Shown here: positions 1,324 through 52,372 of the stretch, piece after piece
Layout: each line of letters opens with the position of its first letter
Numbering within the stretch: the first letter of the stretch is position 1
Source of the DNA: a virus
Length of the DNA: 64,000 nucleotides
Strand: one strand, 5' to 3'
IMG/VR virus record: IMGVR_UViG_3300032236_002285
Span: 372,001 to 436,000 of that record
Made by a program: the position numbers and the translations under genes
The notes under the pieces: generated by a model
What the model was told of the DNA's origin: nothing
The model's database searches: none
The model's input: only the letters and a program-made list of their open reading frames with translations

Positions 1324-2088
1324 ATGAAATACTTAAAAAGATTTAACGAAGAACTTAAACCAAGTACATATATGTCTGCTGCTAAAAAGCTAACAGCAAT
1401 TGGTCATACAGGTAGAGCCAATGCTCTAAAAGATTGGGCGAATGAAACTGAAAAAAGAGAAGAGATGTCTAAGTGGAAGGATCGTTTACAAGACTATGGT
1501 CTTTTTGGTTCTTATAAGATGAATATTGTTAATCCAGAAACTGAAGAAAAATTTACAGGTGATTTTTACTTAGATATTAATTTTGATGAAATGGCATTTG
1601 AGGATAGCTTTGAATATGAGAAAGAAAATAATCCAGATAATATTAAAGGTGTTTCTATTTTATTTTTTATTGGTTTAATTCCAACATCTGAAGAAACACT
1701 TAGAAAATGTATGGAGATTATGCCTTGTGCAGAGTTTGGTAATGGTATGTTCTGGGGTATGAGTTGTGGTTTAGACTTACAAATTCTAAACGATAGATTA
1801 ACATTTACTAAATTCAGTTTAGATGATTATGATGATAACCTATCAGGTAATGTTTCTTTTGCTGATAGAGCTTCTGCTGGTAAATTCAAAACTTTATTAA
1901 AGAATATATTTAGTAATCCAGAATTAAACTATCCAAGTGGATATACAGATGTTGAATATATGTACCAAAAATTAGAACAAGTAGTTTGTATTAGACAATC
2001 ATTCTCATCTGATTATGGATTTGAATTAAAACAAGTGGCTGATTTTATTAATGCTCAGTCACCAAATACAATGTATAAAACTATTTAA
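1324..2088 (+). CDS. Leader-bearing protein, paralogue family A
   Basis: This 254-residue protein has no recognised domain. It opens with the leader MKYLKRFNEELKPS, followed by a helical segment with the family-A signature S-A-A-x-K-L-x-x-[IL]-G-H-x-x-R at about residues 18-32. The same signature occurs in the genes at 2440 and 4675, and all three continue with a similar 'G-x-F-Y-[IL]-[DEN]' strand and a C-terminal section. They are therefore clear paralogues of 250-273 residues. It is first in a run of nine leader genes behind a phage-type promoter. I infer a head-packaged internal protein; the function after delivery is unknown. Confidence 0.75.
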   Translation: MKYLKRFNEELKPSTYMSAAKKLTAIGHTGRANALKDWANETEKREEMSKWKDRLQDYGLFGSYKMNIVNPETEEKFTGDFYLDINFDEMAFEDSFEYEKENNPDNIKGVSILFFIGLIPTSEETLRKCMEIMPCAEFGNGMFWGMSCGLDLQILNDRLTFTKFSLDDYDDNLSGNVSFADRASAGKFKTLLKNIFSNPELNYPSGYTDVEYMYQKLEQVVCIRQSFSSDYGFELKQVADFINAQSPNTMYKTI

Positions 2089-2089
2089 T

Positions 2090-2440
2090 ATGAAACACTT
2101 AAAGAAATATGAAACCTTTAGTCCATATGATGATGAGCCACTAACAAGAGCGGAAGAAATCTTTGGAAAACAAACAAGATTAGAAAAACAATTTTCTGAA
2201 ATTATGATAGATGGTTTATCTAGCGACGATGTTGATGTTGCTCACTATTGGTCTACAATTAATGCTATTGTGGTAAATATAAAAGAAGATAAACTTCTTG
2301 ATGAAACATCAATTAAAGAATTACAACACAGAGTAGTAGAAGGTGAAAACCCAACAGAAGTTATAAATGATATTTGTTCAAGAATAAAAAAGCCTACTAG
2401 TGAAGTACAAAGACTATTAAAAAAACTAAATTCATTTTAA
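2090..2440 (+). CDS. Leader-bearing small protein
   Basis: This is a 116-residue protein. I chose the ATG at 2090, one base after the upstream stop, because it gives the leader MKHLKKYETFSP; an earlier in-frame ATG at 2051 would only add 13 atypical residues inside the upstream gene. The rest is charged and mainly helical, with no recognised domain. It overlaps the next gene by one base (TAATG), which suggests translational coupling. I infer the same packaging fate as its leader-bearing neighbours. Confidence 0.7.
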   Translation: MKHLKKYETFSPYDDEPLTRAEEIFGKQTRLEKQFSEIMIDGLSSDDVDVAHYWSTINAIVVNIKEDKLLDETSIKELQHRVVEGENPTEVINDICSRIKKPTSEVQRLLKKLNSF

Positions 2441-3261
2441 TGAAACATCTTAAAAGTATTAATGAATTAAAATCAAGCACTTTTAGAAATGCTGCTACTA
2501 AATTGAAGCAGTTAGGTCATATTAGAAGAAGTCAAGAAATTGAATCTCATGCTATTGATGTTGAGGAGAGAGAAGAAAAAGCAAGAATTGAACAAAGAAC
2601 TAAATGGTTAAAAGAACAAGCACCATTTAGATTACAATATTATAAAACAAAATATAACTCAGCCACTAAATCACATGAAAAGGATTTATTATGTGAAGGT
2701 AACTTTTATATAGAACCTTCTTTTGATGATGGTTGGTTCTCAGATTCAGGATATGATTATAGAGGTGAAGGTGGTAGATATAGTTTATTTATGTACTTTG
2801 AATTTGGTACTACTCCAGCTGATGTGGAAACTGCAAATACTTGGAAATCAATTGAATCTAAGTTATCAGAAGAAGCATATGATGGAATTTATTATGGTAC
2901 AAGATTAGGTATTGAAATTATACCAGAAGGTAATGCTTCAGTTGTTTCTAATGGTAAATGTTACTGGGAGTCAAGAGATAATGATATTTTTATCTTTGCT
3001 AATAGATCAGAAGCTATGAGATTTAAGAAACTTTTAATAGAAGCTCTTGAAGGTAAAATTGAATGGGGTAAAAACAAATGGAATGTGAAAGGTATTATAT
3101 CTTGTTTTGATAGATACTTTTTAAACGATGCTAATTATATACAAAGAAAAATAGATAAAGGTGAAACTCCTGAAGAACCTCTTTTTACAAAAGAAGATAT
3201 GCCTAAATTAATTAACACTCTTAAAACAGGGTTAAGTGTAAATCAATTATATAAAAACTAA
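2440..3261 (+). CDS. Leader-bearing protein, paralogue family A
   Basis: This 273-residue paralogue of the genes at 1324 and 4675 starts with the leader MKHLKSINELKSS. The family-A signature (AATKLKQLGHIRRSQEI) follows at about residues 18-34. A charged helix and a mixed alpha/beta domain come next. The start overlaps the previous stop by one base, and the stop overlaps the next start. No catalytic motif is visible. It is probably a structural or effector protein delivered with the virion; the function is unknown. Confidence 0.75.
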   Translation: MKHLKSINELKSSTFRNAATKLKQLGHIRRSQEIESHAIDVEEREEKARIEQRTKWLKEQAPFRLQYYKTKYNSATKSHEKDLLCEGNFYIEPSFDDGWFSDSGYDYRGEGGRYSLFMYFEFGTTPADVETANTWKSIESKLSEEAYDGIYYGTRLGIEIIPEGNASVVSNGKCYWESRDNDIFIFANRSEAMRFKKLLIEALEGKIEWGKNKWNVKGIISCFDRYFLNDANYIQRKIDKGETPEEPLFTKEDMPKLINTLKTGLSVNQLYKN

Positions 3262-4190
3262 TGAGATATTTAAAAACATATGAACTATTTGGATTTGGTT
3301 CTAAGAAATCAAAAACTTGGCAAGAAAAGTTCCAAGACATATACAATTGGTATTTAAAGAATAAAGATAAAAAAGATATCCGATCTATTGATTTACCACA
3401 TGCTGATGTTAAAGATGACTCTTTATCAATATCACAAGGTTTAGATAATCATTTGGTTTTCTATGGTAAAATAAAAGGTGGTAACAGACATATGGAATTA
3501 GTTGATTTCTCTGAAGCTGATTATGCTGATCCAAAATCAACAAAAGGTGTTTATCCAATCACTCAAGAAGTTTATGATGAGTATGAGAAAAAGATTCAAG
3601 AGATATCAGATTGGTTAGATGCTAGAAGTGAAAAAGAGTTTGGTAAGTCAGATAGTATTATTTCAGATGATGGTGAATTAAACTTAGATTTTGATGAAGC
3701 GGATTTAGCTTTAGAAGAAATAAATGATAAGATAAAATCTGAATTAGATATCATTGGTAAAGAATATGAATTTGAAATGTCTTACCATCTTTGGACATCT
3801 AAATCAACAAATGAATTAATAGTTGAAAGAATACAATTAGCTATTGATGACTTAAAATTTGGTTTTGGTGGTAATAGATTTTATTGTCAATTATTCACAA
3901 AAGATCCATTCGGTGAAAGAGCTGATATCTGGTTAGAGTCATATTCCTCTTCAGAGTATTATGACTTTGATGAACACAAGTGGCCTTATAGTGATGATAA
4001 AGATAAGATTATTAGAATGTCAACTATTAAAAAAGAGATGACTAGAAAAGAAGAAAGAGATTTTGAAAAGAATAGAAAATATCCTTATGCTTTTGCTTAT
4101 GATATTACACCTTGTAAATGGGAATCTATGGAGCTAGTAAAAGAGATTACTTCTCTATTACAACAAATGAATGATAGTATAAAGAAATGA
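3261..4190 (+). CDS. Leader-bearing protein
   Basis: This 309-residue protein starts with MRYLKTYELFGFGSKK, one of the cleanest copies of the leader. The remainder is acidic and helical with no domain I recognise. It overlaps the preceding and following genes by 1 and 4 bases. The '[IL]-x-E' cleavage pattern seen in several other leaders is less clear here (YELFG). I infer a head-internal protein from the leader only. Confidence 0.7.
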   Translation: MRYLKTYELFGFGSKKSKTWQEKFQDIYNWYLKNKDKKDIRSIDLPHADVKDDSLSISQGLDNHLVFYGKIKGGNRHMELVDFSEADYADPKSTKGVYPITQEVYDEYEKKIQEISDWLDARSEKEFGKSDSIISDDGELNLDFDEADLALEEINDKIKSELDIIGKEYEFEMSYHLWTSKSTNELIVERIQLAIDDLKFGFGGNRFYCQLFTKDPFGERADIWLESYSSSEYYDFDEHKWPYSDDKDKIIRMSTIKKEMTRKEERDFEKNRKYPYAFAYDITPCKWESMELVKEITSLLQQMNDSIKK

Positions 4191-4678
4191 GATACTTAGA
4201 AAAATTCAAATCATTTGAAAATGTTTCTGTTATAAATTCATATATTCAAGATATAAATGATATTTTACTAGAATTAAGTGATTATAACTGGGTTATTCTA
4301 GTTGACTATGTTCCAAAAAGATGGGAAAATCCAAGTGCAAACTATACAATAAAATCCGACTACATCGGTGTAGTTATCAAAAAGAAGCAAAATAAATCAC
4401 AATCAAGATATCCAGAAGGATCTGAGTTCAAATTCTCTGATGTTTCTGATTATATACATAGAATAGTAGATTATTTTATGACAAATGACTATAGAATTAG
4501 GATTTGTGAATTAAATAATGCTTGGTACAATGGTATGCCAGGTCACTCAGAGAAAGGTATATGGTCTGATTGGACCGATTCAGAGATGCCTGAATTAGAT
4601 AAAAACATTTTGGGCATAGAAATTAATATATACTTACAAGGTGCTAACCTTGACGATTTTAAATATAAATTTAGATGA
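4187..4678 (+). CDS. Leader-bearing protein, paralogue family B
   Basis: This 163-residue protein has the leader MRYLEKFKSFENV. A helix with an 'I-[ND]-D-I-L-L-E-L-S-D' pattern is followed by beta strands (W-V-I-L-V-D-Y). The same layout appears in the short genes at 5454, 5864 and 6309, which I group as family B, although identity is low. The start overlaps the upstream stop by 4 bases. The function is unknown. Confidence 0.65.
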   Translation: MRYLEKFKSFENVSVINSYIQDINDILLELSDYNWVILVDYVPKRWENPSANYTIKSDYIGVVIKKKQNKSQSRYPEGSEFKFSDVSDYIHRIVDYFMTNDYRIRICELNNAWYNGMPGHSEKGIWSDWTDSEMPELDKNILGIEINIYLQGANLDDFKYKFR

Positions 4679-5454
4679 GATACTTAAACAAATATAATGA
4701 AGAGTTGAAGTCAGATGTTTATAAATCTGCTGCTGATAAATTAACAAAATTAGGTCATATTAAAAGACCTGAAGAGTTAATGAAGTGGCATGAAATCACT
4801 AAGCAAAAAGAAATTGATGCTTCTAAATTAGCAACTCTTAAAGATTGTGAACAAATGGGTGTTTATCAACTTTCTCTTTCATATAGAAAAGGTGGTCAAG
4901 ATTTTAAGTATAAAGGTGATTTCTATATCAATCTTTCTTTTGACGGCTATAATTTAGATGAACAATACCCAGAGTGGAAAGAAGGTCAAGGTAATCTTTG
5001 GATTAGCTTTAGTTTTGGTGTTATACCTGTAGATGATGAAGGTAAAGAGTTTTGTAAGAATGTAGTAGAATCAATAATCGGATTGGGTGGTGATAAAATA
5101 ACTTATTGGTTAGGTGCTTTTTGGTTAAATATAAGTAAATCAATAGAAATAAATCCTTCTACAGGATTACCAGCAGAAGAATTGAAATTCGTACCAGAAA
5201 ATAAAAGTTACTTTGAAGAGTATGAAGGTAGTTGGCACTTAGATAATAGAGCATCTGCTATAAAATTCAAAAATACTTTATATCAAATATTTAGTGGTGA
5301 TATTATTATAAGAGAAACACCGAGTGTTCCAGGTGGAATGAAAGAGCAAATAATAGATGAACTTTGTAATAATAGAGGTCACGATATTGATGAGTTTGAA
5401 GCTATTATGAACTCTATTAAAGTTCTGAATATAAATAAATTGTATAAAGATTAA
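4675..5454 (+). CDS. Leader-bearing protein, paralogue family A
   Basis: This 259-residue protein is the third member of family A. Its leader MRYLNKYNEELKSD is followed by SAADKLTKLGHIKRPEELMKW, aligning directly with 1324-2088 and 2440-3261. A mixed alpha/beta region contains 'G-D-F-Y-I-N-L-S-F-D'. The gene is coupled to both neighbours by stop/start overlaps. The triplication suggests a gene family expanding inside the leader-gene island. No enzymatic motif is seen. Confidence 0.75.
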   Translation: MRYLNKYNEELKSDVYKSAADKLTKLGHIKRPEELMKWHEITKQKEIDASKLATLKDCEQMGVYQLSLSYRKGGQDFKYKGDFYINLSFDGYNLDEQYPEWKEGQGNLWISFSFGVIPVDDEGKEFCKNVVESIIGLGGDKITYWLGAFWLNISKSIEINPSTGLPAEELKFVPENKSYFEEYEGSWHLDNRASAIKFKNTLYQIFSGDIIIRETPSVPGGMKEQIIDELCNNRGHDIDEFEAIMNSIKVLNINKLYKD

Positions 5455-5867
5455 TGAAACACTTAAAAACATTTGAATCACTATATGAACTACCGGTTAT
5501 TTTAGAGTTAAAAGATATGGCTCTTGAACTAACTGATATGTTTTTTAATGTTCAAATATTCAAGGATAATCCAAAACAAAAGAACTATAACGGCATCATA
5601 GATGTTGAATATGATGTTAGTGTTATAATTACATATGATAAAGGTTTGGGAATTTTTGGATATGGTAACTTTACAATGATAGATGACTTAAAAAGTTTCT
5701 TATTCAGAGCTATCGGTTATATGAAAGATAATGGCTATCAATTTGAAACTCATTCAAATATGGGTAGCTTACATTTTACTGATGATGGTAGAGTAATCAT
5801 TTCCAGCGGTGAAGCAAGAGCAAACTACCCATCATTCACAATGATAAATATATTATTTAAAAAATGA
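5454..5867 (+). CDS. Leader-bearing small protein, paralogue family B
   Basis: This 137-residue protein starts MKHLKTFESLYELP. A helix (L-K-D-M-A-L-E-L-T-D) is followed by alternating beta strands, the same layout as the genes at 4187, 5864 and 6309. The start overlaps the upstream stop (TAATG). There is no recognised domain. Packaging is inferred from the leader. Confidence 0.65.
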   Translation: MKHLKTFESLYELPVILELKDMALELTDMFFNVQIFKDNPKQKNYNGIIDVEYDVSVIITYDKGLGIFGYGNFTMIDDLKSFLFRAIGYMKDNGYQFETHSNMGSLHFTDDGRVIISSGEARANYPSFTMINILFKK

Positions 5868-6331
5868 GATACTTAAAAACATATGAAGGTTTGTTTGATT
5901 TCTTTAAGAAAAAGAAATCTAATAATGAATATAATGACATGATGGATAAGCAATCATATCTTAAAATTCATTTAGAAGATGTAAAAGATTGTTTTATTGA
6001 TTTATGCTCTTATAATTCTTATGATCTAAAAGCATTTATTAGTGGTGGTGAAATACAAGTTAATATTTATCCACTTAAAGATAAATTTATGAAACTTGAA
6101 GATTTGATGGAAACTTTTAGATTTACTGACTCATATATAACCGACTTAGGATTGAAAATTATTAGATACGAATTGTATATTAGTGGTAAATATGATGGTA
6201 TCAATTATATGGGAGATATCTATTATGATAAAATTTGGGAATTGGAACAAGCCCTGGATGAAGAAGGAACTAAACACATAGAAAGTTTATTAATAAGAAT
6301 TAAAAAATATGAAATACTTAAAACGATTTAA
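5864..6331 (+). CDS. Leader-bearing small protein, paralogue family B
   Basis: This 155-residue protein has the leader MRYLKTYEGLFDFFKKKK, with a basic patch just after it. The body shares the helix-then-strand layout of family B (D-V-K-D-C-F-I-D-L; I-Q-V-N-I-Y). Its end overlaps the next gene by 23 bases. The function is unknown. Confidence 0.65.
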   Translation: MRYLKTYEGLFDFFKKKKSNNEYNDMMDKQSYLKIHLEDVKDCFIDLCSYNSYDLKAFISGGEIQVNIYPLKDKFMKLEDLMETFRFTDSYITDLGLKIIRYELYISGKYDGINYMGDIYYDKIWELEQALDEEGTKHIESLLIRIKKYEILKTI

Positions 6332-6727: not shown

Positions 6728-7897
6728 ATGAAATTAAAAAGATATAATCAATTTTTAGAATCTAAATCTGATATGTGGGACATTATTCCACAATCAGTTA
6801 AAGAGTTACATGAATTATTTCAATCAGCTGGTAAGAAACTTTACTTAGTTGGTGGTTCAGTGCGTGACTTCTTAACTGGTGATAAGCCAAAAGATTTTGA
6901 CCTAGCAACTGACGCACTTCCGGATGAAGTATTAGAAATCGTTGGTGATCAATTTAGAACTAACCTTCAAGGTAAGGCATTTGGTGTAGTTGTTGTTTAC
7001 ACTAAAGAAGTTCCAGAAGGAATGGAGATTGCTACATTCAGACAAGATGTTAGTAAAGGTCGTAACCCAGAAGTTAAACTAGGTGTTACTATTGAAGATG
7101 ATGTTAAACGTAGAGATCTAACATACAACTCTCTTTTTTATGATTTAGATACAAGACAAATCGTTGACTTAGTTGGTGGTAAAGAAGATTTACAATCTGG
7201 TGTTACTAGAATGGTTGGTGATCCAATTGAAAGATTTGATGAAGATTCATTAAGAATTTTAAGAGCATTTAGATTTGCTTCAAGATACGAACATCCTTTA
7301 CATAAAGATACTGAGAAGGCAATTGAGAAAAGAAAACAACTTCAAAACATTGACCCAGAAACTGGTGAAATGAAAAGAATTTCTCAAGAAAGAGTTTGGG
7401 AAGAAATGAAGAAAGCTTGGAAACAAGCCAAAGATTATAGATACTATTTATCATTCTTTACTAAGTTTGATATGTGGGAAGAAGTATTTCCAGGTGCTAA
7501 CATCAATACTAACTTAGTTGATAGTAAAGATTTTGTAGTTGTTATTGCTAACTTATTTAAGAACGAAAGTCCTATTGGATTGGCTGACAAGTTGGCTCAA
7601 GAATATAAGATTGAATTAGAGTTGGCGACTAAAGTAGCTTTCTTAATTTCTTTATTAAATTTCAAAGTAGAAGATGTATTTGACATCTACAAGAAAAGAC
7701 AACAATGTGCTATCACTGATGCTACTATTTTAGAGTGGTTGAAAGTGGAAGGTATTGATACTAATGAACTAATTAAGTTTGTTGAATACAGACCAAGTGT
7801 ATCGGCTCAAGAACTAATGTCTCAAGGATTCAAGGGTAAAGAACTTGGAATTGAAATCAAAAGATTAGAGGTAGAAAAATTTAAACAAATGTTATGA
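6728..7897 (+). CDS. cca: CCA tRNA nucleotidyltransferase carrying the N-terminal leader
   Basis: This class II CCA-adding enzyme adds or repairs the 3' CCA of tRNAs. The class II head is clear: GGSVRD at about residues 42-47, the metal-binding D-F-D at 56-58, the R-R-D-L-T-Y-N motif, and 'RFDEDSLRILRAFRFASRY' for the head/neck region. At 389 residues it is full length. The first ~14 residues (MKLKRYNQFLESKS) match the leader of the preceding genes and lie outside the catalytic domain. None of the three tRNAs in this window encodes CCA, so a phage CCA enzyme has an obvious job. Head packaging of the enzyme is inferred from the leader alone. Confidence 0.9.
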   Translation: MKLKRYNQFLESKSDMWDIIPQSVKELHELFQSAGKKLYLVGGSVRDFLTGDKPKDFDLATDALPDEVLEIVGDQFRTNLQGKAFGVVVVYTKEVPEGMEIATFRQDVSKGRNPEVKLGVTIEDDVKRRDLTYNSLFYDLDTRQIVDLVGGKEDLQSGVTRMVGDPIERFDEDSLRILRAFRFASRYEHPLHKDTEKAIEKRKQLQNIDPETGEMKRISQERVWEEMKKAWKQAKDYRYYLSFFTKFDMWEEVFPGANINTNLVDSKDFVVVIANLFKNESPIGLADKLAQEYKIELELATKVAFLISLLNFKVEDVFDIYKKRQQCAITDATILEWLKVEGIDTNELIKFVEYRPSVSAQELMSQGFKGKELGIEIKRLEVEKFKQML

Positions 7898-8315: not shown

Positions 8316-8540
8316 ATGAGACATTTAAAAACATTCAAACTATTTGAAGAAGCGGTTCCGAAACCGTTAAAAAAGTTTCCTACAGAACCGGCTGTTCATT
8401 GGAATTATCTAATGAAAGTTCTAGAAGATGCTGGTATTAACCCACATGATGGTTTAGTGAAAGGACAGAGAGATACTTATTTTCAGGACTTTTTGCTAAA
8501 TGTGCTAGTAGAGATAATGTTGTTTTCCCTAATATGTTAG
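8316..8540 (+). pseudogene. Leader-bearing protein, 5' part of a frameshifted gene
   Basis: I chose the ATG at 8316 because it gives the leader MRHLKTFKLFEEA; an upstream ATG at 8292 adds only eight lysine-rich residues. The frame runs normally to about ...DTYFQDF at ~8490, then continues in a shifted frame and stops at 8540 after unlikely sequence. Reading one extra T in the run at 8486-8490 would continue as FFAKCASRDNVVFPN straight into the ATG at 8534. This is therefore probably the first quarter of one ~320-residue gene broken by a 1-nt indel or by assembly or sequencing error. Confidence 0.6.
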
Positions 8541-10097: not shown

Positions 10098-10682
10098 ATG
10101 ATTAAAATAGGAATTACGGGAGAAATGGGAAGCGGGAAAACCTTCTGTTCTAAGATATTTGAACAATTGGGAGTTCCTGTTTTTTATTCTGATGATATTT
10201 CAAAGTCTATAGTAAATACAAACAAAGCTTTGAAGCAAGAACTAACTCAAGAGTTTGGTAATATTTATGATGAAAATTCAATGATAGTTCCAAAACTACT
10301 AAGAGATATTGTATTTGTTAAAGGTGGTGAGCAAAAGCTAAAAATGTTGAATAAAATAATTCATCCTTATGTATTTAATGAATTTGAATTGTTCTGTAAT
10401 AAAAACTCTAGCAGTCCTTATATTATTGCTGAAACCGCACTTCTTTATGAAAGTAACATGAGAAGATATGTTGATAAAGTTATTTATGTTTGTGTAGAAG
10501 AGCAAACAAGAATCCAAAGAACATTCAAAAGAAGTGGTTATTCTGAACAAGAATATAAAGAAAGAATGAAATATCAGATTAATCCAGAAACAAAGAAAAA
10601 ACTATCAAATTTCATTATTTATAATAATGATGGTGATGATGTTAATAAACAAATTTTAGAAATACATAATACTTTAAAATAA
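10098..10682 (+). CDS. Dephospho-CoA kinase-like P-loop kinase
   Basis: This 194-residue protein has a Walker A G-E-M-G-S-G-K-T at residues 8-15 and 'YSDDISKSI' matching the DADxI region of CoaE. It also has 'AETALLYES' (the PLLFE-type motif) and 'QTRIQRTFKRSGYSEQEYKERMKYQ' in the lid region. CoaE phosphorylates dephospho-CoA; some phage relatives in this superfamily phosphorylate deoxynucleotides instead. It is last in its transcript, since a bidirectional terminator follows. Family assignment is fairly safe, substrate is not. Confidence 0.75.
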   Translation: MIKIGITGEMGSGKTFCSKIFEQLGVPVFYSDDISKSIVNTNKALKQELTQEFGNIYDENSMIVPKLLRDIVFVKGGEQKLKMLNKIIHPYVFNEFELFCNKNSSSPYIIAETALLYESNMRRYVDKVIYVCVEEQTRIQRTFKRSGYSEQEYKERMKYQINPETKKKLSNFIIYNNDGDDVNKQILEIHNTLK

Positions 10683-10724: not shown

Positions 10725-11786
10725 CTATCCAAATATATATCTAAATAGTAGGAATAATCCACCAGACATTACAATAGTGACAGGTAATGTTAATAACCAA
10801 GCAGATAATATAGTTTTGATTGTGTTTGTTTTTAAGTTAGTAACACCTTTGGAAGCCACCATTGAGCCAGCAATACCTGAACTTAAAATATGAGTTGTTG
10901 AAACTGGTAATTTAAACCAAGTAGATAAACCAATTGTTATAGCACCAACCAATTCAGCGGAAGCTCCTTGAGCATATGTTAGATGTGTTTTACCAATTTT
11001 CTCACCAATTGTAACAACAATTCTTTTCCAACCAATCATTGTTCCAAGACCAAGTGAAGCAGCAACCATCCACATAACCCAAGTTGGTGGGTGTGAAATC
11101 GTATCTAATGTATAAGCCGCAGGTAAGAAAGCCATTAGAATAATCATCACCAAGCCTATTCCTTTTTGTCCATCATTTCTACCGTGAAAGAATGATACTA
11201 AAGATGATGTTGTGAATAAAGTGGCTCTAATCCAAAACGGAGGTGGATTAACACCATCCGGTTCTTCAAATACATCTTTTCTTTTAACTACTTTTCTCAA
11301 GAACCACATTAGGAAGATAACTAAGCTGAAACCTAAAAGTGGTGATAAAACTAATGCTTTACCTATATCAATTGCTTTACCCCAATTAACTACATCAATA
11401 CCAGAATATAATGAGTAACCAACACCAACACCAAGTATTGAACCTATAAGAGTGTGAGATGATGAGGCGGGAATACCTTTATACCATGTGATTAGATTCC
11501 AGAAGATAGCAGTTGTGAGTAGAGCTGTAACCATCTGAATAACATGAGATGTGTTAGCATCTGTTAAAATTTCCTTTGGTATAAGACCAACGATTGCCAT
11601 TGTAACACCAACGCCACCAGTTATCAGACCTAGAAAGTTCATAAGACCTGACCAAACAACGGCTGTTGTTGGTTTAAGAGATTTTGTATAAATTACCGTT
11701 GCTACGGCATTTGCTGTGTCGTGAAATCCATTAACGAATTCATAAGCACAGGCTAATAATAGAAATAATACTAATAAGAATGTCAT
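10725..11786 (-). CDS. PiT-family inorganic phosphate transporter
   Basis: This 353-residue polytopic membrane protein carries PiT signatures: 'NGFHDTANAVAT' near the N-terminus (variant of GANDVANA), 'HGRNDGQKGIG' in the centre, and 'PVSTTHILSSGIAGS' near the C-terminus. About ten hydrophobic segments are visible. The family imports phosphate by ion symport. The gene lies 12 nt downstream of the DUF2490 barrel gene on the same strand, a pairing I recall from Bacteroidota genomes. In a phage this would be an auxiliary metabolic gene that feeds phosphate into nucleotide synthesis. Confidence 0.88.
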   Translation of the reverse strand: MTFLLVLFLLLACAYEFVNGFHDTANAVATVIYTKSLKPTTAVVWSGLMNFLGLITGGVGVTMAIVGLIPKEILTDANTSHVIQMVTALLTTAIFWNLITWYKGIPASSSHTLIGSILGVGVGYSLYSGIDVVNWGKAIDIGKALVLSPLLGFSLVIFLMWFLRKVVKRKDVFEEPDGVNPPPFWIRATLFTTSSLVSFFHGRNDGQKGIGLVMIILMAFLPAAYTLDTISHPPTWVMWMVAASLGLGTMIGWKRIVVTIGEKIGKTHLTYAQGASAELVGAITIGLSTWFKLPVSTTHILSSGIAGSMVASKGVTNLKTNTIKTILSAWLLTLPVTIVMSGGLFLLFRYIFG

Positions 11787-21463: not shown

Positions 21464-22235
21464 CATTAGTTAATTTAGGTTCTGTATAAAGAGCACTAGA
21501 ATAGTACCCATCAAATACTTCTCTGTATTTTTCCATCCACTCATCAATATTAGGAATATTCATTTCTTCCATTTTTCTACCTAACCCAGTGGACATATAA
21601 GCTTGTAGCTCATCTGGTAAAACGTGATCAGCATAACCATATTCAGTGATACATTTAAACATAGAATCCTTAACAACACTATCACATTCATTATTTAATT
21701 GAGTCATTGCTGATTTATATTCTGGTAATGTAAAGTACATAGCATGAGCAAATTCGTGTTCAAGTAAATGATTAGCCAACTCATCAACACCTAAAAGATA
21801 ATAATTATGATCTCCCTCAACTTCTTTAATAGCTGATATAATAGATAACATTATTTTATCATAGGTATTAATTTCATCCTCAGGTACATTAAACATACAC
21901 TCTTCTAAAACATTAGATGGAATATTAAATCCAGACCAATCAGAACCATAAGTAAACTCTTGTTTACCATAATGTTGCTTGTAGATATCCATATACTTTG
22001 ATACCTTAAATTGTTTACCAATTATCTCATCAAATGCTGATTCATAAAACTCTTGAGATCTCATAAAAACCATAGCTCTAGAATGAGAATCATTAATCTT
22101 AACGGCCCAAATATGTTGACCACAATGATATAACTCAATTTTATTTAAGAAGTCTTCAGTTTTAGGAGCCAATAAGTGAGATGGGTCCGTAATTAATTTT
22201 TCTAAAAATAGTTTGTATGTTTTAATTATTCTCAT
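21447..22235 (-). CDS. Leader-bearing zincin-like metalloprotease (HEFAH)
   Basis: This 262-residue protein has the leader MRIIKTYKLFLEKL. A zinc-protease active-site helix follows, with 'LLEHEFAHAMYF' giving H-E-x-x-H at residues 160-164. About 45 residues later comes D-E-L-Q-A-Y, which could supply the third zinc ligand (Glu near 209) in a gluzincin-like E-x-x-A pattern. It overlaps the upstream protease-like gene by 4 bases, so both form one operon. I infer a head-packaged peptidase. The exact family is not recognised, and activity is unproven. Confidence 0.65.
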   Translation of the reverse strand: MRIIKTYKLFLEKLITDPSHLLAPKTEDFLNKIELYHCGQHIWAVKINDSHSRAMVFMRSQEFYESAFDEIIGKQFKVSKYMDIYKQHYGKQEFTYGSDWSGFNIPSNVLEECMFNVPEDEINTYDKIMLSIISAIKEVEGDHNYYLLGVDELANHLLEHEFAHAMYFTLPEYKSAMTQLNNECDSVVKDSMFKCITEYGYADHVLPDELQAYMSTGLGRKMEEMNIPNIDEWMEKYREVFDGYYSSALYTEPKLTNVNWNL

Positions 22236-23305
22236 AATCTTGTATTATTTTTTAATGAATATAGTTTTATTATGTTTTTTTGTAATTTTTCACCAGAACG
22301 ATTGATTCTTTTTTGAATAAATGATAAAAACTTATCAACCGACATTGATCTAATAGCTTCTCCTGATAATGTAGGCTTATCTTGTTTATAAGCAATTGAC
22401 TCTTCTCTTCTATTTATTAACTCATTAGCGAGTCCGTTTTTCATTCTCTTCAACATCATATCAACATCAGCATCTGGATAAACACTTAGGATTTTATCAG
22501 ACATTTTTTGCTTAAAAGTTTTAGCATCAAATTCTTTCATTCTTTTTGCGAATCTCCAAGTTGGTGCTTTTTCTTTTACCTCTTCTATATCATATCTTTT
22601 AACATAAGGCCAAGCATCTTGAGTCATTGCGTTCATCTCATGTGGTTCACTCCAATAAATATAAAAGCCAATCTCATCATACCATATTTTCCAAATATCT
22701 TTTCTTATTTTAGCTCTATTAACATCTAAACCAAAAGTAACATCAGTTGATAACTGACCTTTATTTTTCTTCATTCTATTCCAACCTTCATATCCATGAT
22801 TTAACTCATGTGTTATAGAGGATTCAACTTCAATTGATAAACCCTCTCTATCATTAAATGAATCAGAAATAACAGCACCAATTTCAAGTACCAAGTGAAT
22901 AGTAACATCAGATCTATCATCAATACTAGGTCTAATTTCTGAACCACCTTCTTCTCCAATATTATAACAAGCACCAGTTCCAACAAATTTCTTTAATAAT
23001 CCTGTAGTTGGAAACCTTTTATTATAATTATCATCAGTCATTACTTTTATTGAATAAGTAACCTTCATTGATGAAATAGGGTATTTGGGCCAAAATTCAC
23101 TATTAATAAATAACGATAAGTCTTCTTTATTATACTCCTTTATAACTGAGTAATCTCTATTATCATTCTTATCGGCTAATTCATCTTCCTTAATAAATGA
23201 ATCAAAGCACTGATTAAACTCGTCTAATAGGAACTGATTATAAATTAGAGTAGCTTCTGCTACACCATGTGCTTCAAATAATTGATATGATTTTATATGT
23301 TTCAT
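22232..23305 (-). CDS. Leader-bearing zincin-like metalloprotease (HELNH)
   Basis: This 357-residue protein starts MKHIKSYQLFEAHG, in which L-F-E|A fits the T4 prohead-protease site. 'SSITHELNHGYEGW' gives H-E-x-x-H at residues 166-170. 'EPHEMNAMTQ' near 220-228 offers the same E-x-x-A third-ligand pattern as the downstream gene. A ~130-residue basic helical C-terminal region follows. A phage-type promoter sits 4 nt before the ATG. Two adjacent proteases with packaging-type leaders suggest cleavage of host proteins early after injection, or of head proteins. Confidence 0.65.
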   Translation of the reverse strand: MKHIKSYQLFEAHGVAEATLIYNQFLLDEFNQCFDSFIKEDELADKNDNRDYSVIKEYNKEDLSLFINSEFWPKYPISSMKVTYSIKVMTDDNYNKRFPTTGLLKKFVGTGACYNIGEEGGSEIRPSIDDRSDVTIHLVLEIGAVISDSFNDREGLSIEVESSITHELNHGYEGWNRMKKNKGQLSTDVTFGLDVNRAKIRKDIWKIWYDEIGFYIYWSEPHEMNAMTQDAWPYVKRYDIEEVKEKAPTWRFAKRMKEFDAKTFKQKMSDKILSVYPDADVDMMLKRMKNGLANELINRREESIAYKQDKPTLSGEAIRSMSVDKFLSFIQKRINRSGEKLQKNIIKLYSLKNNTRL

Positions 23306-23425: not shown

Positions 23426-23770
23426 ATGAAACTTGATATCAATGAAATTTACCACAATTATATTGTGAGAGTTGTAGTATTTGCTCTCTTTACTTTTAAG
23501 AGACAGATAAGACAACCTAATATTTATAAGATGTCTGTTATAGCTTTTACTATTAAAAGATTGCCTTGGAAAATTAATTTAGTAATTGATACAGGATTAA
23601 AACTAGATAAAGAAGATGAAAGAGAAATACTACTTAATGAAATATTAGAAGGTATTGAAACAGATTATTTATCAACCGTTACCGTTACATTTATCACACC
23701 ACTAAAAGAAGTTACTATGAGTGTGGATTTAAGTGATGAAGAAAAATACGAACACTATCTTTATTCTTAA
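23426..23770 (+). CDS. Hypothetical protein
   Basis: This 114-residue protein has a hydrophobic/basic N-terminal half (VVVFALFTFKRQIRQ) and an acidic C-terminus. It is the only plus-strand gene in the 19.7-25.0 kb minus block and overlaps the end of the kinase gene by 4 bases. No domain is recognised. Confidence 0.5.
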   Translation: MKLDINEIYHNYIVRVVVFALFTFKRQIRQPNIYKMSVIAFTIKRLPWKINLVIDTGLKLDKEDEREILLNEILEGIETDYLSTVTVTFITPLKEVTMSVDLSDEEKYEHYLYS

Positions 23771-25008
23771 TACTCAAAATTAACTTCAGCTCTTCTGTAG
23801 TTTAAGTCAAATGAACTAAATCCAAAGATATCACAGATTCTTTGAAATTTATCCTCACAACTTTCTTCAGATGGTAGTTGACCATCATAAGCATAAGAGC
23901 TAAATTCTATTTTAGTTTCTGAGTCGCCTATTTTTAGACTATCTACTCTGAATCCTAATTTTTCAATTTCATATTTTAAATCAACTTCGTCGGGTAATTC
24001 AAAGTTATCATGTTGAATACTTGGTCTACTGAATTCAAAAAATATATTAAATACTTTATTAACTTCAAAACCAGATAAAGTCCAACCATCATCTCCTAAT
24101 CTACCTACTGCAGATTGCATATTTTCTAATATAACCATTAAGTTATTATAAGTGGCATCTTTAGGTGAATAAACAATACTGAACTTACTAACGGTTTTAT
24201 TTTTAGATACAAGAACTGGTTTGAAATTTTGATATCTTATATTTTTTTCAAGATAATCTGAGTATGTCATATTACCGGTAGAAGACTTGAAGGTAATCTT
24301 TTCACCTTCATCAATAAAGTCCAACATAGTATCAACTATCTTATCAACTTCATTGTGTGTATCAGTTGATTCTTTGATAAAAGAAACATATTTATCAACC
24401 TTTCTTTTCTTTAATTTACCATTATCAAACTTATAGTATTTATACTTACCATCTTTATTAAGAACCACATAAAAAGAATCGGGTTTAATATATTTTAGAT
24501 AAGACTTTGTTGTTTGTAATTGAGTTGAGTAAACATAATCAATATAATCTTCATCTGCTTTATGACCACCCATCTCACCTCTTGTTAGGTTTTGCTTTTT
24601 AGCTGTTGACAAATCAATTAAAATAAGAATAAAAATAACATTATAACCATACTTGTGAGCATCCTTAGTAATCTCAAAAATGTTTTTATCATTTGATCCG
24701 GTTGTATCGTAGATAAAGTTTTGACCGGTTCTTAAATATGATTTTAGATGTGTAATATTTAATTCTGATGCGCCTTGATGATATTTAGATTTATCTTTAC
24801 TAAGTATATATGAAACATCATCGGTTGAAAACTTTCTAATATTAGAATTATAAGGCAAGATATTGTTATTAGCAAATGTAGATTTACCAGAGCCTGGAAT
24901 GCCAAGTAAAACTATACCTAGCTTTTCCTTTTGTCTAATATCGGGTATAGGATCATTCTTTGACCACTCTTCATTTATAAACCCTTCAAAATTGTTAATA
25001 ACTCTCAT
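23767..25008 (-). CDS. Leader-bearing P-loop kinase (zeta-toxin/PNK-like)
   Basis: This 413-residue protein has the leader MRVINNFEGFINEEW, with an I-N-E|E site. The kinase domain (residues ~28-190) has Walker A G-I-P-G-S-G-K-S at 36-43, 'FIYDTTGSN' at about 98-106 (Walker-B-like strand with a substrate Asp), and a basic lid 'LTRGEMGGHKA'. This pattern fits the AAA_33/zeta-toxin/polynucleotide-kinase group. The C-terminal ~200 residues are not recognised. Possible substrates include RNA or DNA ends, UDP-sugars and small molecules. The leader suggests delivery with the virion. Confidence 0.75.
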   Translation of the reverse strand: MRVINNFEGFINEEWSKNDPIPDIRQKEKLGIVLLGIPGSGKSTFANNNILPYNSNIRKFSTDDVSYILSKDKSKYHQGASELNITHLKSYLRTGQNFIYDTTGSNDKNIFEITKDAHKYGYNVIFILILIDLSTAKKQNLTRGEMGGHKADEDYIDYVYSTQLQTTKSYLKYIKPDSFYVVLNKDGKYKYYKFDNGKLKKRKVDKYVSFIKESTDTHNEVDKIVDTMLDFIDEGEKITFKSSTGNMTYSDYLEKNIRYQNFKPVLVSKNKTVSKFSIVYSPKDATYNNLMVILENMQSAVGRLGDDGWTLSGFEVNKVFNIFFEFSRPSIQHDNFELPDEVDLKYEIEKLGFRVDSLKIGDSETKIEFSSYAYDGQLPSEESCEDKFQRICDIFGFSSFDLNYRRAEVNFEY

Positions 25009-30383: not shown

Positions 30384-31511
30384 TTATTTAGCTTCTTCGC
30401 CACCTAATTGTTTTTCAATTTCGGTTATCTTATCTTTATTTGCTTCTGGTTCTTGATATAGTTTAGCTATATCATCTAACTTTTTAATCGCTTCAGGATT
30501 TTTAGTTTTTACATCTGCTAAAGTTTTAACTAAATCTTCTTGACCTTCTGCTTTTTCAACCTCACCTTCAGCTTTCATAAGTATGTCAGCTATAGTTTTA
30601 GTAAAGTCAGCACCTTCAAAAGAAACTTTATCACCTTCAATTTTAGAAATCTTTTTAATTCCAATTTCATCAGTTTGAAGTTCTTTCATTTTACCTTCAT
30701 TTGTTTTTTTCTTATCGTCATCTGTTAAAGCATCCCATTTAGCCTGGTCAAATTTATCTCTTTTATAAACTACGGTATCACCTACTTTATAATCCTGAGT
30801 CGCACCCGCTCCACCAAATGTTATTTTTTTAGCCTCAAGATTTTTATTCAACTCGTCTATCGTTATAGCTTTTTCAAACTTAACCAATTGAGGAATTAAA
30901 GTTTTTTCAACCCAATTTATAATTGCGTCTTTTTTCTTTTTACCATCATTTGCTGCCGCTAATAACTTTTTAACATCAGGAAGATGTGTAGTATCCTTTA
31001 AGTCAACATTAATCTTTTTAGGATCAACTTTACCATCAGTTGGGCCACCAGCAAATTTATATTGAGCTATTGCCTTATTTCTAATTGTTTCAAAAACATA
31101 TTGAGTATCAGCAGGTAACCAGTTCATTGGTTCACCTTTTTTTGGTGGATATTTTTTATTAAGAGCATCTAACATTGGTTTTAATCCTTGTTTTCCTAAA
31201 GCACCTGTTTCTGGATTAAGTATACCATCAACAAGAGTTAAACAATCTTGATCATTAGCCTCTGGTCTTTTTTTGAACTCCTCCATTTGTTGTTTAAACA
31301 TATAAGAATCATCTGTTGGATTTAAGGTATTTGTGCTTATCCATTTTGTTATATCTTCTTGCTTAGGATTTGCACCAAGCTTGTCTAATTCGGCAATAGC
31401 TTTATTCCAAAGATTCTTAAAAAAGTTAATAACACCACCTAATAATTCTTCATTAACAGGCTCCGTGTTTTTTAGTTTTCTATGAGACTCGAATGTTTTA
31501 ATATACTTCAT
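30384..31511 (-). CDS. Leader-bearing Lys-rich protein
   Basis: This 375-residue protein has the leader MKYIKTFESHRKLKN, with a later 'VNEELLGG' as a possible processing site. The body is Lys/Asp/Glu-rich, with an SH3-like strand region ('YKVGDTVVYKR') near residue 240 and a helical acidic C-terminus. The composition resembles small internal head proteins. No enzyme motif is seen. It has its own promoter variant (31534-31550) and terminator. Confidence 0.65.
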   Translation of the reverse strand: MKYIKTFESHRKLKNTEPVNEELLGGVINFFKNLWNKAIAELDKLGANPKQEDITKWISTNTLNPTDDSYMFKQQMEEFKKRPEANDQDCLTLVDGILNPETGALGKQGLKPMLDALNKKYPPKKGEPMNWLPADTQYVFETIRNKAIAQYKFAGGPTDGKVDPKKINVDLKDTTHLPDVKKLLAAANDGKKKKDAIINWVEKTLIPQLVKFEKAITIDELNKNLEAKKITFGGAGATQDYKVGDTVVYKRDKFDQAKWDALTDDDKKKTNEGKMKELQTDEIGIKKISKIEGDKVSFEGADFTKTIADILMKAEGEVEKAEGQEDLVKTLADVKTKNPEAIKKLDDIAKLYQEPEANKDKITEIEKQLGGEEAK

Positions 31512-46731: not shown

Positions 46732-47169
46732 ATGAAACACTTAAAATCATATAAGATCTACGAAAGTGATAATGTTTGTACTACTTGTAACGGAACTGGT
46801 GAAGTAGATAGAGAGATTAATATGTGGGGTGATATGGGTAGATATGAGTGTGAGGATTGTAATGGAACTGGTAAACTAAGCACTCAATCATTTACAAAAG
46901 ATTTAAGATCATTCACAGATGAATCTCAATCAGAATTGAAATCATTACTGGATAAGTATGAAATAAAATACGGCGCTGTTTTACCTAAAGTTGAAAGATA
47001 TTCTGATAATCATGAAGATGTTGAGAAGGTAGAAATAGAAGCTCAGTTATACTCAACTTCTACATTAACTAAAGAATTACTTGAAGAAATAAATGAAAAA
47101 TATGTTGATTATAATATTCATTTTGATACTTACAATCACTTATATCTAATGGTTTATAAACTTTACTAA
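46732..47169 (+). CDS. Leader-bearing protein with a DnaJ-type zinc finger
   Basis: This is a 145-residue protein. I chose the ATG at 46732 because it gives the leader MKHLKSYKIYESDN, with an I-Y-E|S site; an upstream in-frame ATG lies inside the previous gene. Residues 16-46 carry C-T-T-C-N-G-T-G and C-E-D-C-N-G-T-G, two CxxCxGxG halves of one DnaJ-type zinc site. The C-terminal part is a small alpha/beta domain. It may bind unfolded protein or nucleic acid after delivery. A separate J-domain protein is encoded at 49690. Confidence 0.75.
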   Translation: MKHLKSYKIYESDNVCTTCNGTGEVDREINMWGDMGRYECEDCNGTGKLSTQSFTKDLRSFTDESQSELKSLLDKYEIKYGAVLPKVERYSDNHEDVEKVEIEAQLYSTSTLTKELLEEINEKYVDYNIHFDTYNHLYLMVYKLY

Positions 47170-47711
47170 TCCATAAAATCATAAATATCATCTGGTAAAA
47201 ATTCTGGATCAGTTATTTTTAAATCATAGTCTCTAAAGTCTCCGAAGTCAATATCATCAGCATCTAGTCTTCTTGTAATTGAGTCATTTTTATCTTGTCG
47301 TCCTAATAGTCTTGACTCTCTAACCTCTCTATCAATATCAAGATAAACAACAAAGCAACCTTCTCTCATCTCAGGTGTTAAGTTAGTAAACTCACCAGGT
47401 GTCATAATAAATACTTGTGACTCATTGAATTCTTGTAAGGTTATACCATAGTACCATGTTTCTGGTTCTCTACCATCAGGTGTAACATAAAATGTTTGGT
47501 AAGCTAAAAATTTATTTTCATTTATAGATTGTGTAAACTCATAATCAGATACAAAATTGTAAGTAATACCTTGTTCTTCATTTAGTCTTTGAGGTCTTGT
47601 TGTCCATTTAAGACAAGCTTTTAATCCTTTTTCAACAAGCTTTCTCATTAAGAAGTCCTTACCTGAACCAGATTTACCTAAAATAATTAGTTTCTCATTT
47701 TTAACATTCAT
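47166..47711 (-). CDS. Guanylate kinase-like nucleotide kinase
   Basis: This 181-residue protein has a P-loop G-K-S-G-S-G-K-D at residues 12-19, then 'TTRPQRLNEEQGITYNFVS' (the GMP-binding T-T-R-x-x-R-x-x-E), then 'YYGITLQEF' and 'LDIDREVRESRLLGR' for the lid. It fits the GMP kinase fold and probably phosphorylates (d)GMP or another NMP. It converges with the leader gene, overlapping by 4 bases. Confidence 0.82.
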   Translation of the reverse strand: MNVKNEKLIILGKSGSGKDFLMRKLVEKGLKACLKWTTRPQRLNEEQGITYNFVSDYEFTQSINENKFLAYQTFYVTPDGREPETWYYGITLQEFNESQVFIMTPGEFTNLTPEMREGCFVVYLDIDREVRESRLLGRQDKNDSITRRLDADDIDFGDFRDYDLKITDPEFLPDDIYDFMD

Positions 47712-48850: not shown

Positions 48851-49096
48851 TTATCTAATTGGTTTGTAATTAGGAATAGCACCTTTGTAATTAGTGTTAC
48901 CTTTTCTGATTTCTTCATGTTCAGCTTCTACTGCTGCTTGATATTCAGGATCATTCTTTTCATCCTGTTTACAATTCATACAAATAACATCTTCATTAAA
49001 CATAGACATTGTAGTAACACCATTAGTTGGCTCACCACATCTATCACAGATAGATTTATTCATTTCAAATGATTCGTATGTTTTTAAGTGTTTCAT
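48851..49096 (-). CDS. Leader-bearing zinc-ribbon protein
   Basis: This 81-residue protein starts with the leader MKHLKTYESFEMNK. It has a zinc ribbon with C-D-R-C (residues ~17-20) and C-M-N-C (~39-42), then a charged helix. The start overlaps the upstream stop by one base. As one of the smallest leader proteins, it shows how the leader is attached to an independent small domain. Confidence 0.72.
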   Translation of the reverse strand: MKHLKTYESFEMNKSICDRCGEPTNGVTTMSMFNEDVICMNCKQDEKNDPEYQAAVEAEHEEIRKGNTNYKGAIPNYKPIR

Positions 49097-49608: not shown

Positions 49609-49611
49609 AAA

Positions 49612-49689: not shown

Positions 49690-50322
49690 ATGAGCAAGAT
49701 AAAACAACTTGAGATTAAAAAACTATTGAAAGAGTTAGATTTTATTGAATCTGATTATAACTATAAAAGTGAAATAATAAATGAGGCTGATAGTAATTTC
49801 ATTAAAACGGTTAATGATCTACTTGAAGAGCATCCATTATTAAAAGAGGTATTTGACAAAAAAATTAATAGTAAGCTAGATCAAATATTTGAAAAAAAAT
49901 CAGAACAGATAAAAGAAAAGATTGAAGTTGATATCGAAAAAGAAAATCAAGAGGAAGTATTTGAAGATGTTATAATTGAAAAGTTTGTAGATGATAAGGT
50001 TAAAAAACTTTATAGAGAAATAGCTAAACTAACACATCCAGATAGAGTCAGTAATAAAAAACTAAACGACCTGTATATTAAAGCAACCGATTGCTATCAT
50101 AACAATGATAGACCCGGAACTTATACTATTTGTGATGAGTTAGATATAGACTATGAACCAGATGATTCAGATAATCAAATGATAAGTAGTAAGATTTCTA
50201 GCATTAAAGGTAAGATTAATTTCATAGAATCAACTATGACTTGGAATTGGTACCACTCAAATGATGAAAAAGAAAAAGAACAAATGGTGTTAAGATATAT
50301 TAAAAATAGATTAGATAATTGA
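49690..50322 (+). CDS. J-domain (DnaJ-like) protein
   Basis: This 210-residue protein has a coiled-coil N-terminal half (residues ~1-95) followed by 'VKKLYREIAKLTHPDRVSNKKLNDLYIKATDCY'-type sequence in short pieces, with the diagnostic H-P-D near residue 117. J-domains stimulate Hsp70 (DnaK) ATPase, so this protein may recruit host DnaK for virion assembly or replication. The Gly/Phe region and zinc finger of full DnaJ are absent. It converges with the leader gene at 50311 with a 12-base overlap. Confidence 0.8.
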   Translation: MSKIKQLEIKKLLKELDFIESDYNYKSEIINEADSNFIKTVNDLLEEHPLLKEVFDKKINSKLDQIFEKKSEQIKEKIEVDIEKENQEEVFEDVIIEKFVDDKVKKLYREIAKLTHPDRVSNKKLNDLYIKATDCYHNNDRPGTYTICDELDIDYEPDDSDNQMISSKISSIKGKINFIESTMTWNWYHSNDEKEKEQMVLRYIKNRLDN

Positions 50323-50943
50323 TATTTTAACTTTTCTTTCGTTTAATAATGATTGTAACTCATCTTTTCTGAAAAATCTCTTATAAATATCGTTTTCCTT
50401 ATCAAGGTTTTGAAGTTCCCAAGTATTACCATCAGCTGTTGTGTAGATATAATTCTCGTCACCATCTGCAACTTCAATAGTTTTAGATGAAAGTTTATCA
50501 TAAAACTTTTTAACATCACCATTAATTTGAAATAGTTTAACATCTTCCCAGTCTTTATTAGTTTCATTCCATGTTTGAAAAGCAATATAAACAGGGTTTT
50601 CTAGTTCATTGGAATTAATATCATAAATAAACATCCATTTACAAGGTTTATTGACAAATGTTTGATAATCTTCTGTATTTTGAACTGGTGACTTTTTCAA
50701 ACCTAAAGAAGATAGAGAATTAATAAATTCTATGTTATCTGATAAAAAGTCTAAAGTAAGTCTACCTTGATAAAAATCTTTAGGTAATTTTAAAGTATCA
50801 AAAATATCTTTTTCTTCAGCTGAAATAGCCGAAAGAAGCACATCATGCCATATATTCATCGATTCTAGTATATCAACTGACATAGTAACCAAGTCGATAA
50901 CTAAAGATTCTTTGAATTGTTTGTATGTTTTTATTGTCTTCAT
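50311..50943 (-). CDS. Leader-bearing protein
   Basis: This 210-residue protein has the leader MKTIKTYKQFKESL, the copy most like the T4-type MKTYxEF form. The body is alpha/beta with no recognised domain ('CKWMFIYDINSNELENPVYIAFQTW' in short pieces). It is transcribed divergently from the leader gene at 50999, from a shared palindromic promoter. A head-internal location is inferred from the leader. Confidence 0.68.
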   Translation of the reverse strand: MKTIKTYKQFKESLVIDLVTMSVDILESMNIWHDVLLSAISAEEKDIFDTLKLPKDFYQGRLTLDFLSDNIEFINSLSSLGLKKSPVQNTEDYQTFVNKPCKWMFIYDINSNELENPVYIAFQTWNETNKDWEDVKLFQINGDVKKFYDKLSSKTIEVADGDENYIYTTADGNTWELQNLDKENDIYKRFFRKDELQSLLNERKVKISII

Positions 50944-50960
50944 AAAAAAAGAATTAATAC

Positions 50961-50980
50961 TTTTAATATATATATTAAAA
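50961..50980. promoter_or_regulatory. Palindromic bidirectional phage-type promoter
   Basis: TTTTAATATA-TATATTAAAA is a perfect 20-bp palindrome. Each half is a full copy of the phage-type motif facing opposite leader genes, 17 nt from the ATG at 50943 (minus) and 18 nt from the ATG at 50999 (plus). Confidence 0.65.
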
Positions 50981-50998
50981 TACTACATCACAAATCGA

Positions 50999-52372
50999 AT
51001 GAAATGGTTGAGAGGTTATAAATTATTCAAAGAAGCTAAGCAAGAAAAATCTTATAAGAATTTAATTAATGAGATATGTACTTGTATGGTACTCTTAAAC
51101 AATGAATTCTTAGATAATTTATTAGATAGAGGATTGAAAGCAAGATATTCTGAAAACTCAGAAATATTTGTTACTGACTTAAAAAATTTGTTATTAGCTA
51201 AGAATAGATTGAATTTAGGTAAGTTTGAAGGTGATACTTGTATTGCTGATGATGAGCTAGCAAAGGTTAATATGGCTTTTGATGGTATTGAGTTTGATAT
51301 TGAGAAAGATTGGGATAAATTAGTTTCTGCTAGAACAACTGCTAGAAATATTATTGATAAGTTATTATTAGATTCTAAACTAAAACCAGAGATGATTAAA
51401 AATATCTACTGGATTGGTCCTAATAAAGATACCGATCATGAGGAAGATATAGTTATAGAAGATAAAAATGGTCAACAATATAGTTTTTACTTAAATAAAA
51501 ATCTTGCTACACAAAAAACTGCTTCATTTAGTTTATTTGCTGATGACTTGATTGGTGCTGATATTGATAAATTATATAAAGATGAGTATTTACCTAAATG
51601 GGATAAATTAACTCAAGAATGGATTAGATTAATCTATGAGAATGCTAATAAAAATATTCAACAATTAATTGAGAAGTTTATTGACCCTAAAAGAATTGAT
51701 ACAATTGGTTATTTTGAATACTATGACATAAGACATAAAGACCCAAAATTCAAACACTTAGGTGAATTTGTTAGAGAGTTTGAAAAGAATATTTTAAAGT
51801 TTTCAGATTTAATGTCTGAAATATGGAAGAATAAAGATAATTGCTTTATGGACTCAAATAGAGTTACTAAGGAATGGATGGAAGTTAAAATAGTTATTCT
51901 TAACTCTAAAATTCTTGAGAATCTATTAACAACAAGTCTTAAATCAAATCATGTTGATGATATTCAAAAAGTTGAAGATAGTTGGAAATTGGCTGGTGGA
52001 ACCGTTAAGATGAAACTATTTAAGACTTTAGTTGAAAAAATGGGTTGTCTAGAAAGACCTGTTTACTTCTTGGGTAAAAATGGTGACATCTTTAATCTAG
52101 TCCCATCAAGAGAATTCTTTAGAGAAAACTATGATGACTTAAATATTAAATTTGATTATCATGTTAACTTTAATGTTAGTGACGAAGAAGAGAATAATGA
52201 TTTCACAATTAAAATAAAACTAGAGTTAGATGACAACACATTGATAGATATGTTTGTTATAGTTAAATTCTCTGGTGGTGAAATGTCTGGTAAATTATCA
52301 GCTAAATATAAATTTGATATCGCTGATAACTTTAATTATTTAATTTCCAAAAAACAATCTAGTGTTGAATAA
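50999..52372 (+). CDS. Leader-bearing large protein
   Basis: This is a 457-residue protein. I chose the ATG at 50999, which gives the leader MKWLRGYKLFKEAKQ with an F-K-E|A site; the frame is open further upstream, but that part crosses the promoter and the divergent gene. The body is helical and acidic, with a beta-rich C-terminal ~80 residues ('FTIKIKLELDDNTLIDMFVIVKF'). It is the largest leader protein here. No enzyme motif is seen. Confidence 0.68.
   Translation: MKWLRGYKLFKEAKQEKSYKNLINEICTCMVLLNNEFLDNLLDRGLKARYSENSEIFVTDLKNLLLAKNRLNLGKFEGDTCIADDELAKVNMAFDGIEFDIEKDWDKLVSARTTARNIIDKLLLDSKLKPEMIKNIYWIGPNKDTDHEEDIVIEDKNGQQYSFYLNKNLATQKTASFSLFADDLIGADIDKLYKDEYLPKWDKLTQEWIRLIYENANKNIQQLIEKFIDPKRIDTIGYFEYYDIRHKDPKFKHLGEFVREFEKNILKFSDLMSEIWKNKDNCFMDSNRVTKEWMEVKIVILNSKILENLLTTSLKSNHVDDIQKVEDSWKLAGGTVKMKLFKTLVEKMGCLERPVYFLGKNGDIFNLVPSREFFRENYDDLNIKFDYHVNFNVSDEEENNDFTIKIKLELDDNTLIDMFVIVKFSGGEMSGKLSAKYKFDIADNFNYLISKKQSSVE

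Follow-up and report, generated by a model that had tools for sequence, protein, structure and literature searches.

The window analysed here is a stretch of 64,000 nucleotides, positions 372001-436000 of the virus record IMGVR_UViG_3300032236_002285, an AT-rich, huge-phage record of 476,236 bases. Twenty of its genes begin with a similar short peptide, referred to below as the leader, which we consider likely to be a capsid-targeting propeptide of the kind found on the internal proteins of phage T4. All twenty starts reported in a preliminary description of the window are confirmed: each is an ATG that opens a reading frame, and the N-termini are as given there. Genes were called by our own simple scoring of open reading frames. 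In the following lines a slash marks a candidate cleavage site and paralogues are named by start position.

1324..2088, plus strand: leader protein MKYLKRFNE/E, 254 amino acids (aa), paralogue of 2440 and 4675; TTTAATATATAA promoter-type motif upstream
2090..2440, plus strand: leader protein MKHLKKYETF, 116 aa
2440..3261, plus strand: leader protein MKHLKSINE/L, 273 aa, paralogue of 1324 and 4675
3261..4190, plus strand: leader protein MRYLKTYELF, 309 aa, first 18 residues without a site
4187..4678, plus strand: leader protein MRYLEKFKSFE, 163 aa
4675..5454, plus strand: leader protein MRYLNKYNE/E, 259 aa, paralogue of 1324 and 2440
5454..5867, plus strand: leader protein MKHLKTFESLYE, 137 aa, of a paralogue family with an ELxDxG-like motif
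5864..6331, plus strand: leader protein MRYLKTYEGLF, 155 aa
6309..6677, plus strand: leader protein MKYLKRFNE/S, 122 aa, paralogue of 5454
6728..7897, plus strand: CCA-adding enzyme, with N-terminal extension MKLKRYNQFLE/S ahead of the PolyA_pol domain
8316..8540, plus strand: leader protein MRHLKTFKLFEE/A, 74 aa
21447..22235, minus strand: leader protein MRIIKTYKLFLE/K, 262 aa, with HExxH
22232..23305, minus strand: leader protein MKHIKSYQLFE/A, 357 aa, with HExxH; promoter-type motif upstream
23767..25008, minus strand: P-loop kinase (AAA_33 / Zeta toxin / polynucleotide-kinase-like), weaker leader MRVINNFEGFINE/E
30384..31511, minus strand: leader protein MKYIKTFESH, 375 aa
42237..42767, minus strand: leader protein MKYLKRFNE/E, 176 aa; promoter-type motif upstream
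46732..47169, plus strand: leader protein MKHLKSYKIYE/S, with a DnaJ-type zinc-ribbon motif (two CxxC)
48851..49096, minus strand: leader protein MKHLKTYESFE, 81 aa, two CxxC; weak ZZ/Lar-like match below cut-off
50311..50943, minus strand: leader protein MKTIKTYKQFKE/S, 210 aa; promoter-type motif upstream
50999..52372, plus strand: leader protein MKWLRGYKLFKE/A, 457 aa; promoter-type motif upstream

Scored with a leader matrix, 18 of the 20 starts reach 13.6-27 bits, and the remaining two (6728 and 25008) are variants with a one-residue shift or a weaker match. A search of the whole record, as proposed in the preliminary description, enlarged the set. With a matrix built only from window leaders and a cut-off of 8 bits, 48 of 477 genes in the rest of the record qualify, as do 108 of 838 in LR745206 (634,780 bases), the only close relative at DNA level in the phage collection; since shuffled N-termini give 0.5 and 0.8, respectively, the leader is not a product of chance. 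After iteration the matrix places the leader on 64 of 558 genes of the record, about one in nine, and on 118 of 826 in LR745206 (shuffled, 0.2-0.25). It is restricted to N-termini, with hits at 0 of 1996 internal methionines in the record and 3 of 2456 in LR745206. A template-free comparison returns 93 and 182 genes, respectively, with at least three similar N-termini (shuffled, 0 and 1), part of these matches being ordinary paralogues or signal peptides. Aromatic residues occupy leader positions 7 and 10 in 52-62% of leaders, and the strict-leader DNA pattern occurs in at least 116 stretches of viral contigs.

What is conserved is the peptide and not the underlying DNA. Position by position along the leader, synonymous codons are used in approximately genome proportions, the main exception being an over-used threonine codon ACA at position 6, and the 36 bases upstream of leader genes are much like the ones before other genes and show no comparable leader-specific conservation. 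Selection therefore acts on the peptide, and this analysis largely rules out start-codon bias or regulatory DNA as the source of the leader. The preliminary description had itself considered a general translation-start bias; this is not borne out, because seven metabolic or transport genes of the window have no leader:

10098-10682: dephospho-CoA kinase (CoaE)
10725-11786: phosphate transporter
32389-33381: sugar epimerase
33783-34745: phosphoribosyl pyrophosphate (PRPP) synthase
35350-36261: FolD
41696-42175: dihydrofolate reductase (DHFR)
47166-47711: guanylate kinase

Many leaders end in a putative cleavage site. The protease sites suggested earlier hold for part of the window only: hydrophobic-x-E lies within 18 residues in 14 of the 20 leaders, with S or A next in seven of these, and the other six have no such site. 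A clearer signature emerges from the larger set when a site is defined as hydrophobic-x-E in residues 8-18 and internal sites of the same proteins serve as control. Of the 150 leader sites, 82 have S, A or G directly after the glutamate (P1'), versus 133 of the 805 controls (p 2e-21), as do 43 of the 68 leader sites whose P1' falls beyond the matrix (p 5e-16); [FY]NE/S and [IL]FE/[SA] are the commonest two endings. These sites resemble those predicted for the propeptides of the capsid protein and the protease. The predicted capsid-protein site, HSINE/NAY, is unchanged among the 44 relatives listed and aligns with FLTE/A of T4. Predicted capsid sites elsewhere are LNE/S (MA9V-2), MNE/N (LR756501), LNE/D (Lak-A1), LME/N (PAU) and LTE/A (T4), the last being where T4 cuts. 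In PAU the predicted cut, LME64/N65, would leave 521 residues, within one residue of the mature form, for which N-terminal sequencing gave 520 of 585 residues (PMC5646251). The protease starts with MKPVLI[IV]E/N, which recalls LIE-9 in T4 gp21 (PMC9026906).

The head genes that such a system would involve lie in the record outside the window, and include the gp21-type prohead protease that the preliminary description had suggested looking for:

Record 54435-56162: portal (portal match, E 4e-59)
Record 59876-62038: protease-scaffold protein of 720 residues (head maturation protease PHROG, E 1e-31)
Record 62115-63809: Gp23-type capsid protein (Gp23, E 6e-27)

In the 720-residue protein a head maturation protease is fused to a half that is repetitive and resembles a scaffold. 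An alignment of the protease profile to T4 gp21 spans 146 columns (E 2e-5, probability 76%), and 28 relatives all keep the protease residues GEFDHP and VSSR unchanged. The scaffold half, built on the repeat Y-[SA]-E-Y-[IL]-A-E, contains a median of 15 cleavage-type sites versus 2.2 in shuffled sequences, as expected for a core that gets cut up. The repeat itself looks like the T4 targeting peptide, although this may be coiled-coil periodicity. The capsid protein is 69-70% identical to its counterparts in LR745206 and LR756502, and a sequence search with it against the PDB gave no match. The five genomes above 634 kb of a huge-phage study fall within the Mahaphage clade, with Bacteroidetes as predicted hosts (PMC7162821).

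Lineage-specific leaders also appear, by the template-free search, in other gp23-type phages. In 400 kb of LR756501 the forms MI[KT][KRT]FKLFE/[SA] and FINE/S occur on 56 of the 474 genes; of the cultured relatives, PAU carries MKT[LI][ST]KLYE/[SA] on 18 genes in 160 kb and MA9V-2 has MKTFF.FINE/S on six genes; and in Lak-A1 MNKxIKxLLE/S makes up part of a set of 15 genes. The PAU leader genes include members of the head operon, gp142 and gp154 being annotated as internal capsid protein and gp152 as scaffolding. Applied to T4 as a control, the search places IpI, IpII and IpIII among the top N-termini, together with gp61.1, and also returns unrelated homing-endonuclease paralogues. The uncharacterised gp61.1 (AF158101 18966-19130, minus strand) starts with the capsid-targeting-like MKTFKEFIKE and is possibly a further T4 internal protein. 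Two AT-rich contigs, G003 (L238-L248; 214 kb) and G004 (L249-L265; 330 kb), have 59 and 83-84 genes, respectively, that start with MK[YH][IL]K[TK][FY]E. Separately, Lak-A1 (L345-L364) has five tandem paralogues at ~311-313 kb of MK250015 with the common N-terminus MKxxIRxxVFETNSSSxH.

Leader genes at the head of a transcription unit also have, nearly always, an upstream motif in common, [TC][TA]ATATATA. Where transcription-unit heads are taken as genes with an upstream gap of at least 35 bases, the motif precedes 27 of 28 leader heads versus 82 of 242 others in the record, 41 of 47 versus 97 of 334 in LR745206, and 18 of 20 versus 66 of 172 in LR756501; in G003 and G004 the counts are 12 of 22 versus 30 of 115 and 19 of 31 versus 44 of 186. 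It lies upstream of the capsid, portal, protease, terminase and sheath-like genes, as well as of ribonucleotide reductase and a peptidase, and not upstream of the DNA polymerase, helicase-like or primase-like gene, several functions in this comparison having been assigned by eye. This distribution suggests a late promoter.

The bodies behind the leader, described earlier as unrelated, are mostly but not wholly so. Seventeen window bodies form 14 clusters, with 1324/2440/4675 and 5454/6309 as paralogues, and all 182 leader-protein bodies form 123 clusters, including 91 singletons, one 12-member and one 7-member family. In the CCA-adding enzyme the domain match begins after the leader, and the site FLE/S is kept in three phages with differing first residues. 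A 1233-residue frame of LR756501 (L292:14863-18564, minus strand) with the leader MITKFKLFE has a CCA-enzyme-like region at residues 764-955. Recognisable products in the window further include the polynucleotide-kinase-like P-loop protein and zinc-ribbon-like proteins; outside it the leader occurs on a glutamyl-tRNA synthetase, NUDIX, OmpA-type and Toprim-like proteins, and a defence-system scan of the leader proteins there gave five single matches. The glutamyl-tRNA synthetase of the record carries the leader and a linker of ~40 residues, whereas its LR745206 orthologue begins at the catalytic core without a leader. Of the orthologous pairs in which one or both phages have a leader (58 in all), 42 are concordant, with a leader in each phage, and 16 are discordant, some of the latter owing to start-codon choice. 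Extensions of ribosomal protein S21 in huge phages were rejected as leaders, since frames of 64-72 aa with a domain of 55 positions give little space for leader and linker.

A capsid-targeting sequence is carried by IPI, IPII, IPIII and Alt of T4 (PMC9026906, PMC3012670). By analogy, the leader proteins would be made late in infection along with head and tail proteins, and their basic, aromatic N-terminal peptide would bind the scaffold core to which the prohead protease is fused, enclosing the cargo in the prohead. The protease would then cut after the conserved glutamate (hydrophobic-x-E/S, A or G) and free the mature body, which would stay beside the DNA inside the head; some of these bodies probably pass into the next host, where they may act as effectors. 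We hold with good confidence that the leader is a capsid-targeting propeptide of this kind, present across a large part of the accessory proteome, and judge the system to be, as far as genome comparison can tell, a greatly expanded version of the T4 internal-protein system. The parallel with T4 drawn in the preliminary description gains from the P1' signature, the predicted capsid site, the gp21-type protease with its scaffold, the promoter motif and the recovery of the T4 internal proteins. Several points weigh against it. P3 is F or Y in about half of leader sites and L or I in about half, whereas T4 gp21 takes L or I there (PMC9026906). No site occurs within 18 residues in 32 of 182 leaders. 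PTm1 has head genes of the same kind and yields no leader family by the template-free search, the internal capsid protein annotation in PAU is taken over from its record, structure prediction for the protease domain was unusable (predicted local distance difference test score 37), and searches turned up no virion proteomics on these uncultured phages. G003 and G004 show no S/A/G enrichment after the glutamate (0.12 versus 0.10 and 0.14 versus 0.11), and neither a portal nor a convincing protease was detected in them, only a partial Gp23-like match; the leader there may be uncut, or the contigs incomplete. Contigs G011, G012 and G018, which are similar, have one leader gene in common and likewise no such head genes.

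G003 and G004, with the leader but without signature, portal, protease or intact capsid genes, and the leaders of the record's phage that have no visible site would fit a signal that directs proteins to some other phage structure or compartment (tail, membrane site or replication compartment) and is not removed. We find this unlikely, as the P1' signature implicates the prohead protease, and so do the similar predicted sites of capsid protein and protease and the leaders in the PAU head operon. Less probable still is that recent gene duplication, followed by divergence of the bodies, left the leader as the mark of a family and without a present function. Some bodies are paralogous, as the clusters and the two larger families illustrate, but the 91 singletons have no detectable relation, FLE/S is kept on the CCA enzyme despite differing first residues, and leader presence varies between the orthologous glutamyl-tRNA synthetases. 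As for a translation-start or regulatory element of DNA or RNA, or a start-codon composition bias, codons at positions 2 and 5 are A-rich, as is usual near start sites, threonine ACA exceeds expectation at position 6, and ATGA overlaps often couple neighbouring genes. Yet other synonymous codons vary as they do genome-wide, the upstream bases do not stand out and most genes, the metabolic enzymes of the window among them, have no leader, which makes this explanation highly improbable.

If the leader is a capsid-targeting propeptide, its likeness to T4 lies in a short N-terminal peptide common to unrelated bodies, in aromatic residues three apart (positions 4 and 7 in T4; 7 and 10 here), in the glutamate at the predicted cut and in a genome with both gp21-type protease and gp23-type capsid protein. 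Unlike the handful of internal proteins in T4, there are 64 to ~120 leader proteins per genome here; other differences are endings that are mostly F-E/S or A, or F-N-E/S, a P3 that is frequently aromatic, a single protein combining protease with scaffold, and a cargo that counts a CCA enzyme, a glutamyl-tRNA synthetase and a kinase among its members. The ejection proteins of the giant phages SPN3US and phiKZ are similar in that many proteins are packaged with the genome and the prohead protease cuts after glutamate, and two SPN3US proteins have an identical N-terminus; in contrast, several of those propeptides exceed 100 residues and no short leader common to dozens of genes is described (PMC5694885).

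The literature searched, which leaves out most subscription journals, holds no report of such a leader-addressed set, nor of co-injected proteins with a signal sequence. We lean slightly towards the view that huge Bacteroidota phages hold the largest known head-packaged protein set (60 to more than 100 per genome), addressed by one short, lineage-variable leader, with an internal proteome readable from the genome and tRNA enzymes delivered before phage gene expression. If so, the virus would bring dozens of ready-made proteins, tRNA enzymes included, into each new host, which would explain how takeover, tRNA repair or counter-defence could begin immediately at infection. A large unannotated gene group of huge phages would become predicted virion cargo, the internal proteome of phages that have not been cultured could be read by a simple rule, and the leaders would supply new tags for packaging proteins to be delivered in phage heads.
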